A DNA stretch of 64,000 nt from Ignatzschineria sp. RMDPL8A (lineage in GTDB: Bacteria; Pseudomonadota; Gammaproteobacteria; Cardiobacteriales; Wohlfahrtiimonadaceae). Location: contig NZ_JAPPWA010000002.1 of assembly GCF_029815055.1 (NCBI RefSeq), forward strand, positions 744,001-808,000, given 5' to 3'. Every line of letters starts with the position of its first letter. Position 1 is the stretch's first letter. Below are positions 3,079 to 15,380 of this stretch, one piece after another. A model generated the notes under the pieces. The model was given only the letters and a program-made list of their open reading frames with translations, had not been told where the DNA came from and did not search any database. A program made the translations under genes and the position numbers.

Positions 3079-3312
3079 CAGTTGGATGTTGGATCAAGAA
3101 AAAGTCTCACCCCCCAATGGATGTAACCCTTCTGTCATAGAGTCTTTGCAAAATGGGCTCATTCAACAAAACATGGATTGTAAAAATATCGCATGTAACT
3201 TATTGATATTCATCTGGGTATTTGATGATTATCATATTGGAATTATGCAAATCAGATATCCTAAGAACATTCTGCATAAGCAATTGTTTTTAATATAAAT
3301 ACGGGAGACATC

Positions 3313-3540
3313 ATGGATTTTGAAGAGAAAGGCTTAATGGATGAGGTCTATCACGATACGTTAGCCTCAGTATGTGAGCGAGTGAAATATCAGGCGAACC
3401 ACTATTTAAATGAGAGCGAAAAATTATCGCCTTCAGCATCGCTTGAAGAATATGCCGAATTTAAGGAGCGCATTCGTCACTTAGCAGAATCGGCCATTGA
3501 CGACATTGAAAAGTGGATGCAAACCTTCCTTTGGAAATAA
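3313..3540 (+). CDS. Small hypothetical protein, 75 residues
   Basis: Not recognised. It is a short acidic protein, predicted largely helical, with no signal peptide or membrane segment. It contains one Cys and a C-terminal WMQTFLWK patch. CGGGAGA lies 7 bases before the ATG and a hairpin terminator follows at 3586-3637, so it looks like a real monocistronic gene. The 234 bp between the oxidoreductase stop and this gene hold no convincing coding sequence and probably carry its promoter. Confidence 0.65.
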   Translation: MDFEEKGLMDEVYHDTLASVCERVKYQANHYLNESEKLSPSASLEEYAEFKERIRHLAESAIDDIEKWMQTFLWK

Positions 3541-3585
3541 TTAACCGCGCTAATTGAATTTAGCCATTACGTAGACAAACCCGTT

Positions 3586-3637
3586 GCACCGAATTTTTTT
3601 AAGTGGATTAAGACTTAAAATCACTCGGTGCTTTTTT
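3586..3637 (+). terminator. Intrinsic terminator after the 75-residue gene
   Basis: Outer arms GCACCGA (3586-3592) and TCGGTGC (3625-3631) enclose an inner inverted repeat TTTTAAGT/ACTTAAAA. A run of six T follows. The long two-tier stem is unusual but looks like a real terminator. Confidence 0.7.
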
Positions 3638-3664
3638 ATGAGTGCATTTTATACAAAGGTGTTA

Positions 3665-5167
3665 TTAGGGTTCTACTTTTTCTGGTGTCTCTATTTTGGG
3701 CGGGTTAATAATCTTTTGAGTGCCATCGAATAAAATAATTGGATTGCGTTGCCAGAGCGATGGGCCATCATATCTAAAACTATCTTCCATGGACCACCAC
3801 TCTTCAAAGCGCACTTTTTGTTCAGCTTCAAGCCGTTGAAGATGGGGAAGCGTCAACACAGTCATATAGAGCGTGGTACAAAGCGCCATAAAGGTGAGGC
3901 TTTTAAGTAGTAACATTCCGAGTAGTGGATAATCAAGTGATATCTTAACCGTTGGTGTATGCGCGCGTTTCCCATGATTGATTGAGCGGAGATCAAGCGG
4001 AAAGGTAGCCAGATAGAGATGGAAGGCATAGGCAAAAATCAGTACTGAGATAAATTGGCTGAGCGGATAGACAAATGCCCCTGAAAAGAGTGCATTCATC
4101 GACACCATCGCAGGTGCCGCCCAAATCCAACAGGGCATTAGTTTACGGCGTAAAAAGAGTTTGAGTGCCGTAAAGAAAAAGCCCACTAAAAAGAGGACAC
4201 CGATGAGGCCAAACTCCGCCATCCAGTGGAAAATAAAGCTGTGTGGGTGAGAGGCATAATAACCCTGCCAACCTTTATAATTGCTACCGCCAATCCCGAA
4301 GAGAGGATGTGCTAAAAAGTCTTTAAGAGCGTGTGAATAGAGAAGCGTACGGCCGGAGCTTGACGTTCGAACGAGTTCATGGGCATCTTGCACAATTGCA
4401 TTGATGGTGATGTAGAGTAAAAACCCAAGAAGCAGCGAGATAAGCGGGATTTTAAGGGCGCTTTTTTTATTGGTGCCAAAAAGAGCGATCATCAATAGTG
4501 CAAGCCCGAGGCTTAATAGTGCACTGCGCGCACCATCCATAAAGAGATTAAAGATGTAGAGAGTGCTTAAGAGAATGATCCAAGGCGTCCATTTTTTTGC
4601 GGATAAAAACCCCGGTCTAAGCCATAAAATGGCTAGTGCAGGCAGTAATACATCGTCTAAATAACGGATATTTTCAAAAGTGTCGTGCCAAAACATATCA
4701 CCATCTGGAATGAGCATCTTCATAATGATATTGGTGATAAAACGAATCATCACTGGGAGCGGCGCAAGGGCGAGGAGCGCAAAGAGATTCCCCATCCATT
4801 TGGCATCGTAACGAAAGAGGATTCCCGCGTAGAGTCCGCTAATTAAGAGCAGTGATCCAACTCCGTAGGTGAGATAGGCCGTGACATTTTTAACACCAAA
4901 AAGCGCCAGCACCATAAAGCCTAATAATACGGCGGTGAGATAGTAGGGGAGATTTCCTAAAGTATTGAGGGTTTTGAGGGGGAGTAATAAAAAACCAACG
5001 GCAAAGAGGGAGAGTACGGTAATTTGATAAAAGCGCCAACGGTCATAGTGATTCTCTAATAAAGCGAGATAATCATAGCCACTAAATGCGAGGAAAAACC
5101 AGATTACTGCGATGAGTGCCAGTGTACGGTGGAGCCATTTTATGGGAAGGTATTGGGTCATTGCCAT
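3665..5167 (-). CDS. O-antigen ligase/polymerase-type membrane protein (WaaL/Wzy superfamily)
   Basis: A 500-residue inner-membrane protein with about a dozen hydrophobic helices. The family signature is the large periplasmic loop with the conserved Arg and His context: SGRTLLYSHALKDF, FGIGGSNYKGW and SHPHSFIFHWMAEFGLIG. WaaL/Wzy/PglL-type enzymes join or polymerise undecaprenyl-linked glycans; sequence alone does not separate O-antigen ligase from polymerase or protein O-oligosaccharyltransferase. The C-terminus has a hydrophilic periplasmic extension with many aromatic residues. It stands alone. The ribosome site is weak, and the ATG at 5161 (third residue) is an alternative start. Confidence 0.75.
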   Translation of the reverse strand: MAMTQYLPIKWLHRTLALIAVIWFFLAFSGYDYLALLENHYDRWRFYQITVLSLFAVGFLLLPLKTLNTLGNLPYYLTAVLLGFMVLALFGVKNVTAYLTYGVGSLLLISGLYAGILFRYDAKWMGNLFALLALAPLPVMIRFITNIIMKMLIPDGDMFWHDTFENIRYLDDVLLPALAILWLRPGFLSAKKWTPWIILLSTLYIFNLFMDGARSALLSLGLALLMIALFGTNKKSALKIPLISLLLGFLLYITINAIVQDAHELVRTSSSGRTLLYSHALKDFLAHPLFGIGGSNYKGWQGYYASHPHSFIFHWMAEFGLIGVLFLVGFFFTALKLFLRRKLMPCWIWAAPAMVSMNALFSGAFVYPLSQFISVLIFAYAFHLYLATFPLDLRSINHGKRAHTPTVKISLDYPLLGMLLLKSLTFMALCTTLYMTVLTLPHLQRLEAEQKVRFEEWWSMEDSFRYDGPSLWQRNPIILFDGTQKIINPPKIETPEKVEP

Positions 5168-8723: not shown

Positions 8724-10091
8724 ATGAGTTCTGCAACTGGGGCTGATGGTCAGCCCATGGCGCGCCCATTAAATCGTGAAGATTATAAAACGTTAACGCT
8801 TTCATCGCTCGGTGGAACGCTTGAATTCTACGATTTCGTCATTTATGCACTCTATATTGAAACGATCGTCAAACCGCTATTTCTCCCGGCGGACATTTCA
8901 CCACTCATTGCCGACCTCTTTGCATGGGGCGGATTTGCCGCAGGGTATATTGCTCGCCCGATTGGTGGGGTAATTATGGCGCACTTTGGTGATGTCCTTG
9001 GCCGTAAAAAGATGTTTACTTTGAGCGTTGCGATGATGGCGCTCCCGACCTTTATTATTGGGCTCCTTCCTACCTATGCGCAGATCGGTATGTTTGCGCC
9101 GATTTTACTCGTGATTATGCGGATGTTCCAAGGCGCTGCGATTGGCGGTGAAATGCCGGGCGCGTGGGTCTTTATTGCAGAACATACTCCGAAAAACCGC
9201 TACGGTCTTGGTATTGGTACCTTAACAAGTGGTATCACAGGCGGAATTTTACTGGGCTTTTTAGTCTCAATCATTATCGACTTAAATTATTCGAAAGCCG
9301 AGATCTTATCGTACGCATGGAGAATTCCATTTATCGCGGGCGGTATCTTTGGAATTATCGCGGTATTCTTACGCCGTTATCTATCTGAAACACCGATTTT
9401 TAAAGAGATGGCTGCGCAAAAAGCGCTCTCAAAAGAGATCCCGATGATGACGGTGTTAAAAAGTCATAAAATTGCCTGTTTAATTGTGGCATTTTTAACT
9501 TGGTCGCTCTCAACGGCGATCATGGTGGGGATTTTAATTACCCCTGTTGCCGTACTTGGAAAAATGCATGGAATTGAGCCGCTTAACGCTCGTATCGCCG
9601 GGTCAATTGCCGCATTAACGTTAACCATTGGATGTGTATTTTGGGGTTGGTTGGAAGATAAAATTAAAACGCGTCTTAACATGCTTTTTGCATGGGGTGG
9701 ACTCGCCGTTTCAAGCCTCTATTTTTACTACAGCTTAACGCAAGGCATTTCGATGAATATGGTCTATATCAATTACGGGATTATGGGCTTCTTTGTGGGC
9801 GCGATTGCGTTAACGCCGGTGGTTGGAACGCGCGCATTCCCGCCAGCGATCCGCTATTCAGGTCTATCATTTTCATACAATTTAGCCTACGCGGTATTCA
9901 GTGCGATTACGCCGATGTTGACGCTTAAATTGCTCGGCGTGACGCCACTTGGCGCAGGCATCTATATTGCCGGTGTTTCGATCTTAGCGATCTTAGTGGC
10001 GTTCTATCCGCTCTCGTATAAAGGGTGGGAAGCGAAAGGAGCGACTCCAGCCGTTAAGCCTGAGGTGAAAGGGGCATTAGGCGCAATGTAA
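8724..10091 (+). CDS. MHS-family (metabolite:H+ symporter) MFS transporter, copy 1
   Basis: A 455-residue inner-membrane protein with 12 predicted helices. The opening LGGTLEFYDFVIYAL is typical of the MHS family (ProP, KgtP and citrate carriers). The loop 2-3 motif is GDVLGRKKMF, and loop 4-5 has RMFQGAAIGGE. The substrate cannot be told from sequence; organic acids or betaine-like compounds are typical. AAAAGGAAG precedes the ATG. A paralogue lies 343 bp downstream on the same strand. A terminator between them suggests separate transcription. Confidence 0.85.
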   Translation: MSSATGADGQPMARPLNREDYKTLTLSSLGGTLEFYDFVIYALYIETIVKPLFLPADISPLIADLFAWGGFAAGYIARPIGGVIMAHFGDVLGRKKMFTLSVAMMALPTFIIGLLPTYAQIGMFAPILLVIMRMFQGAAIGGEMPGAWVFIAEHTPKNRYGLGIGTLTSGITGGILLGFLVSIIIDLNYSKAEILSYAWRIPFIAGGIFGIIAVFLRRYLSETPIFKEMAAQKALSKEIPMMTVLKSHKIACLIVAFLTWSLSTAIMVGILITPVAVLGKMHGIEPLNARIAGSIAALTLTIGCVFWGWLEDKIKTRLNMLFAWGGLAVSSLYFYYSLTQGISMNMVYINYGIMGFFVGAIALTPVVGTRAFPPAIRYSGLSFSYNLAYAVFSAITPMLTLKLLGVTPLGAGIYIAGVSILAILVAFYPLSYKGWEAKGATPAVKPEVKGALGAM

Positions 10092-10434: not shown

Positions 10435-11778
10435 ATGAGTATTGCGATCAATGCCGACGGCTACCCGGTGGCGCGGCGCTTAAATCGTCACGACTATAAA
10501 ACACTAACATTATCATCACTTGGCGGGACGCTGGAGTTTTACGATTTCGTCATTTATGCGCTTTATATTGAGACCATTGTTAAACCGCTTTTTCTGCCGA
10601 GTGATATTTCGCCGCTCATTGCCGATCTTTTTGCATGGGGCGGATTTGCCGCGGGGTATATTGCTCGCCCGATTGGTGGCGTGATTATGGCGCACTTTGG
10701 TGATGTGCTTGGCCGTAAAAAGATGTTTACTTTGAGCGTTGCGATGATGGCGCTCCCGACCTTTATTATTGGGCTCCTTCCGACTTATGCGCAGATCAGC
10801 ATGTTTGCGCCGATTTTACTGGTGATTATGCGGATGTTCCAAGGGGCTGCGATTGGTGGTGAGATGCCGGGCGCGTGGGTCTTTATTGCCGAGCATACGC
10901 CGAAAAATCGTTCCGGTCTTGGGATTGGGGTATTAACGAGTGGCATTAGCGGCGGAATTTTATTGGGCTTTTTGGTCTCAATCATGATCGATTTAAACTA
11001 CTCAAAAGCTGAGATTTTATCCTACGCATGGCGGATTCCCTTTATTGCCGGCGGTGTTTTTGGAATTATCGCGGTCTATTTACGCCGTTACTTATCGGAA
11101 ACGCCGATCTTCCAAGAGATGTCCGAAACTAAAAGTTTATCGAAAGAGATTCCGGTGATGACGGTATTAAAACGCCATAAAATTGCCTGCGTTATTGTGG
11201 GACTCTTAACTTGGTCGCTTTCCACGACGATTATGATCGGGATTTTGATTACGCCGGTCGCGATTCTTGGAAAAATGTATGGCATGGAACCGCTCAATGC
11301 GCGGATTGCGGGATCGATTGCGGCGCTGAGTTTAAGCTTTGGTTGTATCTTCTGGGGCTTTATGGAAGATCAATTAAAAACGCGTCTTAATATGGTGCTC
11401 TCGTGGGGTGGACTCGCGCTCTCGAGCCTCTATTTTTACTATAGTTTAACCCGCGGGATTAGCCTTGAGATGATCTATGTTAATTATGCAGTGATGGGCT
11501 TTTTTGCAGGGGCTGCGACGACGCCTCCCATTATTGGAACGCGTGTTTTCCCGCCTGCAGTGCGTTATTCAGGCTTATCGTTTTCTTATAATTTGGCCTA
11601 TGCGATCTTTAGTGCGATCACGCCGATGTTTACTCTCTATCTCCTCGGGATTACCCCGATGGGGGCAGGAATCTATATTGTGGGGATCTCGATGCTTGCG
11701 ATTTTGGTGAGCTCCTATCCGCTTTCGTATAAAGGTTGGACGGCGCCGGTTGAGAGTAAATTTACTGAAATTGCGTAA
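10435..11778 (+). CDS. MHS-family MFS transporter, copy 2
   Basis: A 447-residue paralogue of the 8724-10091 product, alike along its whole length and nearly identical over the first 150 residues. It has the same LGGTLEFYDFVIYAL, GDVLGRKKMF and RMFQGAAIGGE motifs. An in-frame ATG at 10321 would add 38 residues not seen in copy 1, so the ATG at 10435 with GAGG upstream is preferred. A 74-bp run is identical at nucleotide level between the copies (8997-9070 and 10708-10781) while flanking third positions differ, hinting at local gene conversion. Confidence 0.85.
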   Translation: MSIAINADGYPVARRLNRHDYKTLTLSSLGGTLEFYDFVIYALYIETIVKPLFLPSDISPLIADLFAWGGFAAGYIARPIGGVIMAHFGDVLGRKKMFTLSVAMMALPTFIIGLLPTYAQISMFAPILLVIMRMFQGAAIGGEMPGAWVFIAEHTPKNRSGLGIGVLTSGISGGILLGFLVSIMIDLNYSKAEILSYAWRIPFIAGGVFGIIAVYLRRYLSETPIFQEMSETKSLSKEIPVMTVLKRHKIACVIVGLLTWSLSTTIMIGILITPVAILGKMYGMEPLNARIAGSIAALSLSFGCIFWGFMEDQLKTRLNMVLSWGGLALSSLYFYYSLTRGISLEMIYVNYAVMGFFAGAATTPPIIGTRVFPPAVRYSGLSFSYNLAYAIFSAITPMFTLYLLGITPMGAGIYIVGISMLAILVSSYPLSYKGWTAPVESKFTEIA

Positions 11779-12013: not shown

Positions 12014-12322
12014 TTATTTGATCGAATCAAACATAATTTTTGGCGCTTCATGATTGCGCTTAAAGAGAACGGCCATGCGTCCAATTTGTTGAACGAGTTG
12101 GGCATCGACTACTTGAATCAGCTCTTTTACGAGCGCATCACGCTCAGCTTTATCGCCTGCGACCTTAACTTTAATAAGCTCATGGTGAGTGAGCGCGCGG
12201 CGAGTCTCTTCAACGAAATTTTCCGTGAGACCTTTATCGCCCATGATCATGACGGGGTTTAAATGGTGCGCTTTCGCTTTTAAAAGTTTAATATGGTCGT
12301 TTGTTAATTTAATTTGTGTCAT
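12014..12322 (-). CDS. yhbY: Ribosome assembly RNA-binding protein YhbY (CRM domain)
   Basis: A 102-residue CRM-domain protein that associates with pre-50S particles. It shows LKAKAHHLNPVMIMGDKGLTENFV, whose GDKGLT loop matches the GxxG RNA-binding loop of the family, and the closing GRMAVLFKRN. The start is taken at 12322, where the family begins (MTQIKLTNDHIK); the open frame runs on upstream without support. In Escherichia coli yhbY is also divergent from rlmE-ftsH. Its start codon overlaps that of the divergent gene at 12321. Confidence 0.9.
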   Translation of the reverse strand: MTQIKLTNDHIKLLKAKAHHLNPVMIMGDKGLTENFVEETRRALTHHELIKVKVAGDKAERDALVKELIQVVDAQLVQQIGRMAVLFKRNHEAPKIMFDSIK

Positions 12323-12626
12323 GAATAGTAATAATAATCCAGATAATAAAGAGATAAGGGTAGCACAAAATTCGCAAATAAGTAACCTTTTTACAGGGCT
12401 TAGAGGCGTTGCGGCAGTGATGTTAATCACGGGAATTGTGCTCGTTATCATCTTCTCATTTTTAGAGGTGTCACCGCTCGTTGAGTGGGGCGTTTTACTT
12501 TTGTTTGGCGTCGCAAGCGGCGGCTATTTAATGGGTAGAGCGCGGTCAATTTTGACCCAAATCGAGGCGCACAAGGCGCAGACAGAACAAAGAGAAACAC
12601 AGAGGGAACACGATGAACAAGAATAG
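12321..12626 (+). CDS. Small membrane protein, unknown function
   Basis: A 101-residue protein not recognised as a known family. An Asn-rich polar N-terminus is followed by two hydrophobic helices (about residues 31-52 and 58-75). A strongly charged Gln/Glu/Arg-rich helical tail of about 25 residues follows, probably coiled-coil. It overlaps the next gene by 14 bp (stop 12624-12626, rlmE-like ATG 12613), suggesting translational coupling. The proposed ATG shares the CATG palindrome with the divergent yhbY ATG and has no clear ribosome site, so the start is uncertain. An inner-membrane adaptor is possible because FtsH is encoded downstream; that is inference. Confidence 0.6.
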   Translation: MNSNNNPDNKEIRVAQNSQISNLFTGLRGVAAVMLITGIVLVIIFSFLEVSPLVEWGVLLLFGVASGGYLMGRARSILTQIEAHKAQTEQRETQREHDEQE

Positions 12627-13239
12627 ACAACCCCACATGCGAGAGCGCGATGCGATGCAAGATCAGGCGCACCGCGATGGTTATCGCTCAAAAGAGATCT
12701 ACTCACTTTTAGAAATTGATCAAAAAGATCGGATTTTCAAACCTGGACAACTCGTCGTTGATCTTGGTGCATGTCCCGGCAGTTTCAGCGAATATGCCCT
12801 TGAAAAAGTGGGGCGTAAAGGGCGTGTAATCGGCCTTGATAAACGTGAGATTTTTAATCCCGTTCCTAATTTAGAATACGTTGTGGGCGATTTTCACGAT
12901 GAAGCGGTTTTTAATGAACTGATTGAAACGTTAAATGGTGAAAAAATTGATGTGGTGCTTTCTGATATGGAGCCGCGCATCAGTGGAATTAAGGATGTGG
13001 ATCAATCGCGCCGTATCTATTTAGCGGAACTTGCGTATGATCTTGCAATCAATCACCTCAATAAAGGCGGAGCATTTATCACGCGGATGAGTAAAGGCAA
13101 AGGGTTTGATGAATATTTGCAAGCGCTTCGCGACCATTTTTCGAAAGTGAGAACGCAAAATATTGTGGAGCAAAATGCCGATCCACGTCGTGAAAAAACG
13201 CCTGTACTATACTTAGTAGCAACGGGATTTCGAGGATAG
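12613..13239 (+). CDS. RlmE/FtsJ-family rRNA methyltransferase homologue with altered catalytic tetrad
   Basis: A 208-residue Rossmann methyltransferase-fold protein. RlmE makes 2'-O-methyl U2552 in 23S rRNA and helps 50S assembly. The SAM site is recognisable (VVDLGACPGSFSE, residues 48-60), as are LSDMEPRISG and GKGFDEYL. Aligned by eye with Escherichia coli RlmE, the K-D-K-E tetrad (K38, D124, K164, E199) reads Ser31, Asp118, Arg158, Val198, so only the Asp is kept. Position in the genome (yhbY side, before ftsH) is that of true rlmE. Either the protein is inactive and kept for a structural or binding role, or it uses other residues. GAGGGA precedes the ATG. Confidence 0.8.
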   Translation: MNKNRQPHMRERDAMQDQAHRDGYRSKEIYSLLEIDQKDRIFKPGQLVVDLGACPGSFSEYALEKVGRKGRVIGLDKREIFNPVPNLEYVVGDFHDEAVFNELIETLNGEKIDVVLSDMEPRISGIKDVDQSRRIYLAELAYDLAINHLNKGGAFITRMSKGKGFDEYLQALRDHFSKVRTQNIVEQNADPRREKTPVLYLVATGFRG

Positions 13240-13475: not shown

Positions 13476-15380
13476 TTGAAGTACACTGGAAGAGATATCG
13501 CAATCTGGCTCGGTATTGGAATGTTTATTTTATTCCTATTCCAAGGCTTTGGCAGTAGCGGTGGAAGAGAAATTAGATACTCTGATTTCCTCGATCAAGT
13601 CGATCGTGGACAGATTAAAGAAGTGACAATTACCGGGTCAGCCATTGATGGTGTGACCAATGATAATCGTCGTTTTTCAACCATCAGCCCGGAAACAGAC
13701 AACGGTCCAATGATTGATACATTGCGCCAAAATAAAGTCTCTTTTGATGGGCGTTCGATGAAAACGCAAGGCGTCTTATTAAGCGTCTTTTTAAACCTAT
13801 TGCCGATCTTACTCTTGCTCGGTTTCTTTGTCTTTATGATGCGCCAATCTTCAGGCGGGGGTAAAAACCCGATGAGCTTTGGTAAATCAAAAGCACGAAT
13901 GTTAACGCAAGATCAGATCAAAACCACCTTTGCTGACGTTGCAGGGGCTGATGAAGCGAAACAAGAAGTGGGCGAAATTGTTGAGTTCTTGCGTGATCCA
14001 TCGCGATTCCAAAAACTCGGGGGCACAATGCCTCGCGGTATCTTAATGGTGGGATCACCCGGTACCGGTAAAACATTGCTCGCAAAAGCGATTGCAGGGG
14101 AAGCGCGCGTTCCGTTTTTCACCATTTCAGGCTCTGACTTTATGGAGATGTTTGTCGGGGTTGGGGCCTCGCGTGTTCGTGATATGTTTGAGCAAGCGAA
14201 AAAACATGCGCCGTGCATTATCTTTATTGATGAGATTGATGCGGTCGGTCGCCATCGTGGTGCGGGATTAGGCGGCGGTCATGATGAGCGTGAGCAAACC
14301 CTTAACCAGCTACTCGTTGAGATGGATGGATTTAACGAAAATGAAGGCGTGATTGTAATCGCAGCGACGAACCGTCCTGACGTATTAGACCCAGCGCTCC
14401 TTCGTCCGGGCCGTTTTGACAGACAAGTGGTCGTACCGCTTCCGGATGTTAAAGGCCGTGTGCAAATCTTAAATGTCCATATGAAGAAAATTAAAGCGTC
14501 GAGTGATATCAATGTCGAACACATTGCCCGCGGGACACCTGGATTTTCGGGGGCAGACCTTGCAAATCTTGTGAACGAAGCGGCTCTTTTTGCAGCGCGT
14601 CGTGATCAAAAAGAGGTCTACATGAAAGATATGGAAGATGCGAAAGATAAGATCATGATGGGCGCTGAGCGCAACTCAATGGTGATGACCGAAGATGATA
14701 AACGTTTAACGGCGTATCATGAAGCGGGGCACGCCATTGTGGGCTATCGCCTTAAATCGGATCCGGTTTATAAAGTGACGATCATTCCGCGCGGCCGCGC
14801 ACTTGGTGTGACGATGACGCTTCCTGAGCGTGATCATGTGAGTGTTCCTCGTCGTTGGCTTGAAAATAAACTTGCGATGGTATTTGGTGGCCGAATCGCT
14901 GAAGAAATTATCTTTGGTTACGATGCGGTTACAACTGGTGCGGCGAGTGATATTCAGCACGCAACGAGCTTAGCGAAAAGCATGGTTACCAAATGGGGTC
15001 TTTCCGATAAACTCGGATTTAGAACCTATTCAGACGATAATGATGAGCCATTCTTAGGTCGCTCTATGGGCGGTGGCGCGAATGGTGTATCGGATCAAAC
15101 GGCTCGTTTAGTCGATGAAGAGATCCGCGCAGTGATTGATCGAAATTATGAGCGTGCTGAGCAAGTTCTGAATGATGATATCGATAAACTTCACAAAATG
15201 GCAGAAGTCCTCTTAGAGCTTGAAACGATCGATGCGGATCAAGTTAAAGAGATTATGGAAGGCAAGCCTGTGACCGGTTATTCAAAAGATAACGAGGGCA
15301 GTGATGATGATTTAAGCGATAGTGATGTTGCGGAAGAGAAAGAGTTCCGTGCACCGCCAAAGCTTGATCCGATCTCATAA
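13476..15380 (+). CDS. ftsH: ATP-dependent zinc metalloprotease FtsH
   Basis: A 634-residue membrane-anchored AAA+ protease that degrades misfolded membrane proteins and regulators. Two transmembrane helices (about 8-24 and 100-122) flank a periplasmic domain. The AAA domain has Walker A G193SPGTGKT, Walker [12 protein letters not shown] and the SRH region with RPGRFDR. The zinc motif HEAGH is at 415-419. The Walker A reads GSPGTGKT rather than the usual GPPGTGKT. The acidic low-complexity tail is normal. The TTG start at 13476, with GAGG upstream, matches the family start; no in-frame ATG exists upstream. The gene is 236 bp after the rlmE-like gene and may have its own promoter. Confidence 0.95.

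Follow-up and report, generated by a model that had tools for sequence, protein, structure and literature searches.

What does a gene for an rRNA methyltransferase encode when its frame is intact, its locus is conserved and most of its catalytic residues are gone? The question is raised by an rlmE-like gene of Ignatzschineria sp. RMDPL8A, which lies in a window of 64,000 nucleotides (the whole stretch of DNA analysed here, positions 744,001 to 808,000 of contig NZ_JAPPWA010000002.1). A preliminary description of this DNA placed the gene where true rlmE sits, between a divergent yhbY and ftsH, and considered its frame intact. Our analysis bears out both the gene order and the frame, and adds a small membrane-protein ORF to the locus:

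12014 to 12349, minus strand: yhbY-like gene, divergent, upstream of rlmE.
12321 to 12626, plus strand: small membrane-protein ORF of 101 aa with a weak DUF4064 match, between yhbY and rlmE.
12613 to 13239, plus strand: RlmE/FtsJ-family orthologue of 208 aa with active site S31-D118-R158-V198 instead of K-D-K-E, as judged by profile match and alignments.
13476 to 15380, plus strand: ftsH, encoding 634 aa, downstream of rlmE.

The rlmE frame runs from an ATG at 12613 to a stop codon at 13237-13239, with a putative Shine-Dalgarno sequence (gaggg) immediately 5ʹ of the start. It is likewise intact in L035, which is a second and separate assembly of this species (~97% DNA identity). The small membrane-protein ORF overlaps the start of rlmE by 14 nt, and its homologues are also found upstream of rlmE in sister genera. 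Just upstream of yhbY-rlmE there is a tandem duplication of transporter-like segments (8758-10028 and 10469-11739, with ~80% DNA identity), both of which are present in the second assembly as well.

Is this gene the rlmE of its species? The protein matches the FtsJ/RrmJ family profile (PF01728; 131 bits) and, end to end, the NCBIfam rrmJ/RlmE profile (177.9 bits, E 1.5e-52), the latter with a score under the curated threshold of 300 bits, as is the case for 275 of the 276 class genomes. An AlphaFold model (pLDDT 88.9, pTM 0.87) has the FtsJ/RrmJ fold. Among solved structures, the protein is closest to E. coli RlmE/FtsJ (1EIZ) in both sequence and fold, with an rmsd of 1.6 for the model across 179 columns. 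The best sequence matches are RlmEs of the same family, at 45–48% identity. Plasmid matches are canonical RlmE at ~41% identity, and a search of viral contigs found no relatives of the protein. Each of the two assemblies encodes a single FtsJ protein at the level of RlmE. A second, canonical RlmE elsewhere in the genome was sought in both and rejected. In Ignatzschineria sp. RMDPL8A, the other FtsJ matches score at most 22 bits, and the best of them is an RsmB-like protein. The locus and the ranking of identities both point to vertical descent. We therefore read the gene as the one rlmE orthologue of its species, inherited vertically.

RlmE is characterized by a K-D-K-E catalytic tetrad, and it is here that the protein departs from its family. 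Residue-by-residue alignment to E. coli RlmE places S31 at K38, D118 at D124, R158 at K164 and V198 at E199, the same residues that had been assigned by eye. The register is secure, since each of the four positions falls in a gap-free stretch of the alignment. Three of the sites involved are:

12703 to 12705, plus strand: codon of S31 (E. coli K38).
12964 to 12978, plus strand: motif IV, D118-M-E120-P-R122; D118 is retained, and next to it A has become E and N has become R.
13084 to 13086, plus strand: codon of R158 (E. coli K164), CGG in the window and the synonymous CGA in the second assembly.

The second assembly shares the S-D-R-V pattern. All 68 other gammaproteobacterial orthologues examined, some of which are only 25–30% identical, have K-D-K-E; 49 of them are from the order and class, and 19 are from the bottom of the score ranking in a survey of 276 class genomes. 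No other natural loss of the tetrad was found among these 19 readable low-scoring orthologues. Since every other orthologue keeps the tetrad, its loss is, as far as sampled, specific to the lineage of Ignatzschineria sp. RMDPL8A. In one single-contig genome, rlmE is split in two frames (G200:C1:1662930-1663488; L145, L151), reflecting a frameshift, a pseudogene or an assembly error, and is uninformative for the tetrad. A limited literature search that covered few subscription papers found no natural bacterial RlmE without the tetrad.

What are the consequences for Um2552? E. coli RlmE with the K38A substitution is catalytically inert (PMC11221467), and by analogy Um2552 formation should be lost in this species. 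An alternative explanation is that the protein is still an active Um2552 methyltransferase, possibly a slower one, that uses displaced residues such as K27 or R158 with E120. The SAM motifs and D118 are intact, R158 and K27 are conservative swaps, and the A-loop target sequence is unchanged in a species where the gene is strongly constrained; slow chemistry might still be possible with the displaced residues K27, E28, E120, R158, K161 and K163. However, K38 has no replacement at its position in any alignment, and alanine at this position abolishes the activity of the E. coli enzyme (PMC11221467). Moreover, the tetrad is invariant in the 68 orthologues, including very divergent ones. We consider continued Um2552 formation improbable.

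Sequencing error and a pseudogene were also considered as sources of the altered residues, and both are ruled out by the same residues in the second assembly together with the dN/dS ratio. Between the two assemblies, rlmE has 27 synonymous and 6 non-synonymous differences (dN/dS 0.054). The corresponding ratios are 0.014 for ftsH, 0.032 for the M20 peptidase gene and 0.064 for the transporter gene, and the range of 0.014–0.064 is that of the neighbouring genes with enough changes for comparison. The rate of change in the past was very different. In an FtsH tree, the species adjoins a genus of the same family (g4) that has a canonical RlmE, and its stem is short (0.13 changes per column), whereas in RlmE the stem measures 3.4 changes per column or more. 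In other long lineages, RlmE change is only ~2–3 times FtsH change. Because the branch is so long, the exact placement of the protein in the RlmE tree is unsure; constraining the family to a single clade gives a tree that is not rejected (p-AU 0.21). Given the 27 synonymous and 6 non-synonymous differences, and a dN/dS within the range of the neighbours, the phase of rapid change has ended and rlmE is now under strong purifying selection.

These data also bear on the suggestion that the gene is decaying and heading for loss after an RlmP-type enzyme took over the A-loop. Decay would fit the fast evolution and the lost functional residues, an RlmP homologue is present in the genome, and RlmE is missing from some genomes of the class. 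Nonetheless, the frame is intact in two assemblies, the dN/dS of ~0.05 is inside the range of the neighbours, and the SAM motifs have been selectively retained, such that we regard decay as highly improbable.

The changes in the protein extend well beyond the tetrad. If a column is counted as conserved when 85% or more of 43 orthologues conserve it, there are 67 such columns, and 25 of these are changed in the window protein. Most orthologues have 0–4 such changes, and the maximum, 20, is in one at 25% identity that keeps the tetrad. The changed columns cluster in the N-terminal element, in the surroundings of the active site (R27K, A28E, K31S, A120E, N122R, K158R and F160S) and in the C-terminal loop. 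For the N-terminus, active-site strand and C-terminal loop combined, 18 of 26 columns are changed, as compared to 7 of 41 elsewhere (Fisher p 3e-5, with a grouping of columns that was drawn post hoc, after the data had been seen). The two terminal segments, and the SAM motif between them, are:

12613 to 12678, plus strand: N-terminal tail and helix, residues 1-22, with conserved S, W, L, H and V positions changed.
12751 to 12792, plus strand: SAM motif I (LVVDLGACPGSFSEY region, residues 47-60), kept.
13159 to 13215, plus strand: C-terminal segment, residues 183-201, which replaces the KPxASRxRSxEY loop and has V198 for E199.

Hence, neither the N-terminal W-L-x-E-H element nor the C-terminal KPxASRxRSxEY loop of RlmE is found in the protein; the loop has been rewritten with an insertion, and the confidence of the AlphaFold model is low at residues 187-192. 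Human mitochondrial MRM2 inserts its N-terminal helices into rRNA, and these draw the A-loop towards and into the active site (PMC8209036). Judging from MRM2 and from their conservation, the N-terminal helix and the KPxASRxRSxE loop of RlmE are expected to grip the A-loop. Net charge was considered as a further sign of lost RNA binding, the pI of the protein being low (6.5), and was dropped because some canonical RlmEs of sister genera have an equally low pI.

In contrast to these elements, the motifs of the predicted SAM pocket are all retained (DLGxxPG, D76, GDF and D118), in agreement with the SAM-binding loop recognized in the preliminary description. The survival of D118, the lone remaining “catalytic” residue, is explicable, since its equivalent in human MRM2 (D154; E. 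coli D124) binds the methionine moiety of SAM (PMC8854578). D118 has probably survived because it, too, holds SAM.

Could the protein be a non-catalytic 50S assembly factor, still docking at the A-loop and remodelling late intermediates of the 50S subunit without methylation, as catalytically dead human MRM2 does? Indeed, MRM2 with the K59A or D154A substitution restores mitochondrial translation without methylation (PMC8854578), and a methylation-independent role of RlmE has been proposed in E. coli (PMC11194073). Retention of the locus and fold, and purifying selection, are consistent with such a role. However, the N-terminal helix and the C-terminal loop, the putative holders of the A-loop, rank with the most heavily decayed regions of the protein, and for this reason a purely structural factor is less favoured. 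Furthermore, the SAM pocket has been kept, which is the opposite of the expectation for such a factor, and E. coli K38A fails to rescue and is inhibitory (PMC11221467). A 50S factor thus seems to us rather unlikely. The preliminary description had proposed either a non-catalytic 50S factor or different chemistry; with the N-terminal helix and C-terminal loop also decayed, the first of these proposals is weakened, and the second, as a changed substrate or another SAM-dependent function, is favoured.

Is the A-loop itself altered, or is it modified by another enzyme? The 23S A-loop (GGCTGTTCGCC) is intact, including U2552, and a 23S comparison found no genome-unique bases in the 75 nt to either side of U2552. 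The few genome-unique 23S bases are 180–310 nt upstream of it. A changed target was rejected, since the A-loop is unchanged. An extra SPOUT enzyme unique to this genome was rejected likewise, since its four SpoU-family proteins equal the count in the sister genus g4. A protein encoded elsewhere in the genome (L108:1022-1786:-; G000:C2, about 1.71 Mb) has B. subtilis RlmP as its best PDB match (7QIU; E 1.4e-62, 46.6% identity). It consists of an L30-like substrate-binding domain and a SPOUT domain with intact motifs; RlmP is its nearest solved SPOUT relative, and its match to RlmP (215 bits) far exceeds that to RlmR (88 bits). In B. subtilis, RlmP is the Gm2553 methyltransferase, and Gm2553 is present with no Um2552 (PMC12123411). 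On the basis of its identity to RlmP, the protein is predicted to make Gm2553, adjacent to U2552.

We propose, as a hypothesis, that RlmP relaxed the constraint on RlmE. We go no further than this because g4 carries both RlmP and a canonical RlmE, and because genomes without RlmE are not enriched for RlmP-type proteins. An RlmP orthologue is absent from the next genus, and within the order as sampled g4 alone shares it. The RlmP-type substrate-binding domain (PF22435) is uncommon, occurring in 16 of 276 class genomes, with the strongest match in this genome. It is found in 1 of ~15 class genomes without a convincing RlmE and in 15 of ~261 with RlmE, which does not support a general swap of RlmP for RlmE. 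Three further genomes of the class have an RlmP-type SPOUT gene beside canonical rlmE or less than 2 kb from it (L043:1104-1910 and 1866-2621; L156:779-1525 and 3274-3999; L157:831-1598 and 3301-4056), and this proximity hints that the two A-loop enzymes may be functionally linked. RlmE can also be lost outright, since ten of the 276 class genomes (completeness ≥90%) have no RlmE match (G033, G078, G093, G097, G117, G152, G183, G195, G277 and G281).

Catalysis and A-loop contacts have been lost together while the SAM site has been kept, and for this reason we favour a repurposed SAM-binding protein. From the sequence, we infer a loss of Um2552, retained SAM binding and a new role. We put the chances at about even that this RlmE orthologue has lost its Um2552 chemistry and is now a SAM-binding protein with a changed role. 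The fuller version is more tentative, and falls somewhat short of even: RlmE at its native locus may have turned into a SAM-dependent enzyme with a new acceptor, or a SAM-gated binder, with A-loop methylation left to RlmP. After the split from the sister genus, RlmE would have changed very fast, losing K38, K164 and E199, which are needed only for catalysis, and most of the elements that grip the A-loop (the N-terminal helix and the KPxASRxRSxE loop). The Rossmann fold and SAM pocket would have been retained, with D118 probably kept to hold SAM. The product could be a methyltransferase that modifies another acceptor through a new D-M-E-P-R/R158 site; alternatively, it could be a binder gated by SAM. 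The A-loop would depend on the RlmP-type SPOUT enzyme (Gm2553), as in B. subtilis. In E. coli, K38A does not rescue the deletion and inhibits growth, perhaps through trapping on the substrate (PMC11221467), and the shedding of RNA-binding elements would avoid such trapping.

The protein resembles E. coli RlmE (RrmJ/FtsJ) in its locus by ftsH and yhbY, its length, its Rossmann fold, its SAM motifs and the residue equivalent to D124. Unlike E. coli RlmE, it is without K38, K164, E199, the N-terminal WLxEH element and the KPxASRxRSxE loop, and has E for A126 and R for N128 beside the active site. It shares the RlmE-family fold with human mitochondrial MRM2, which is a precedent for the importance of presence over catalysis. 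However, MRM2 keeps K59, D154, K194 and its N-terminal helices, and dead MRM2s are laboratory mutants, whereas the case described here is natural. B. subtilis RlmP (YsgA), which has a homologue in the genome, has a SPOUT fold unrelated to RlmE, and would be a possible back-up at the A-loop. In Thermus, the SPOUT enzyme RlmR makes Um2552 instead of RlmE, but the SPOUT protein of this genome is closer to RlmP.

What is the significance of an RlmE without its catalytic residues? It remains a matter of debate whether a cell depends on the RlmE protein, on the Um2552 mark or on the two together, since dead MRM2 suffices in mitochondria but dead RlmE fails in E. coli. The lineage described here, whose sole RlmE lacks the catalytic residues and yet is under selection, provides a natural and direct test of protein versus mark. 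The RlmP-type Gm2553 enzyme predicted elsewhere in the genome suggests a route by which Um2552 could become dispensable. If our reading is correct, this lineage would be a natural bacterial case in which the RlmE protein is separated from Um2552 chemistry.
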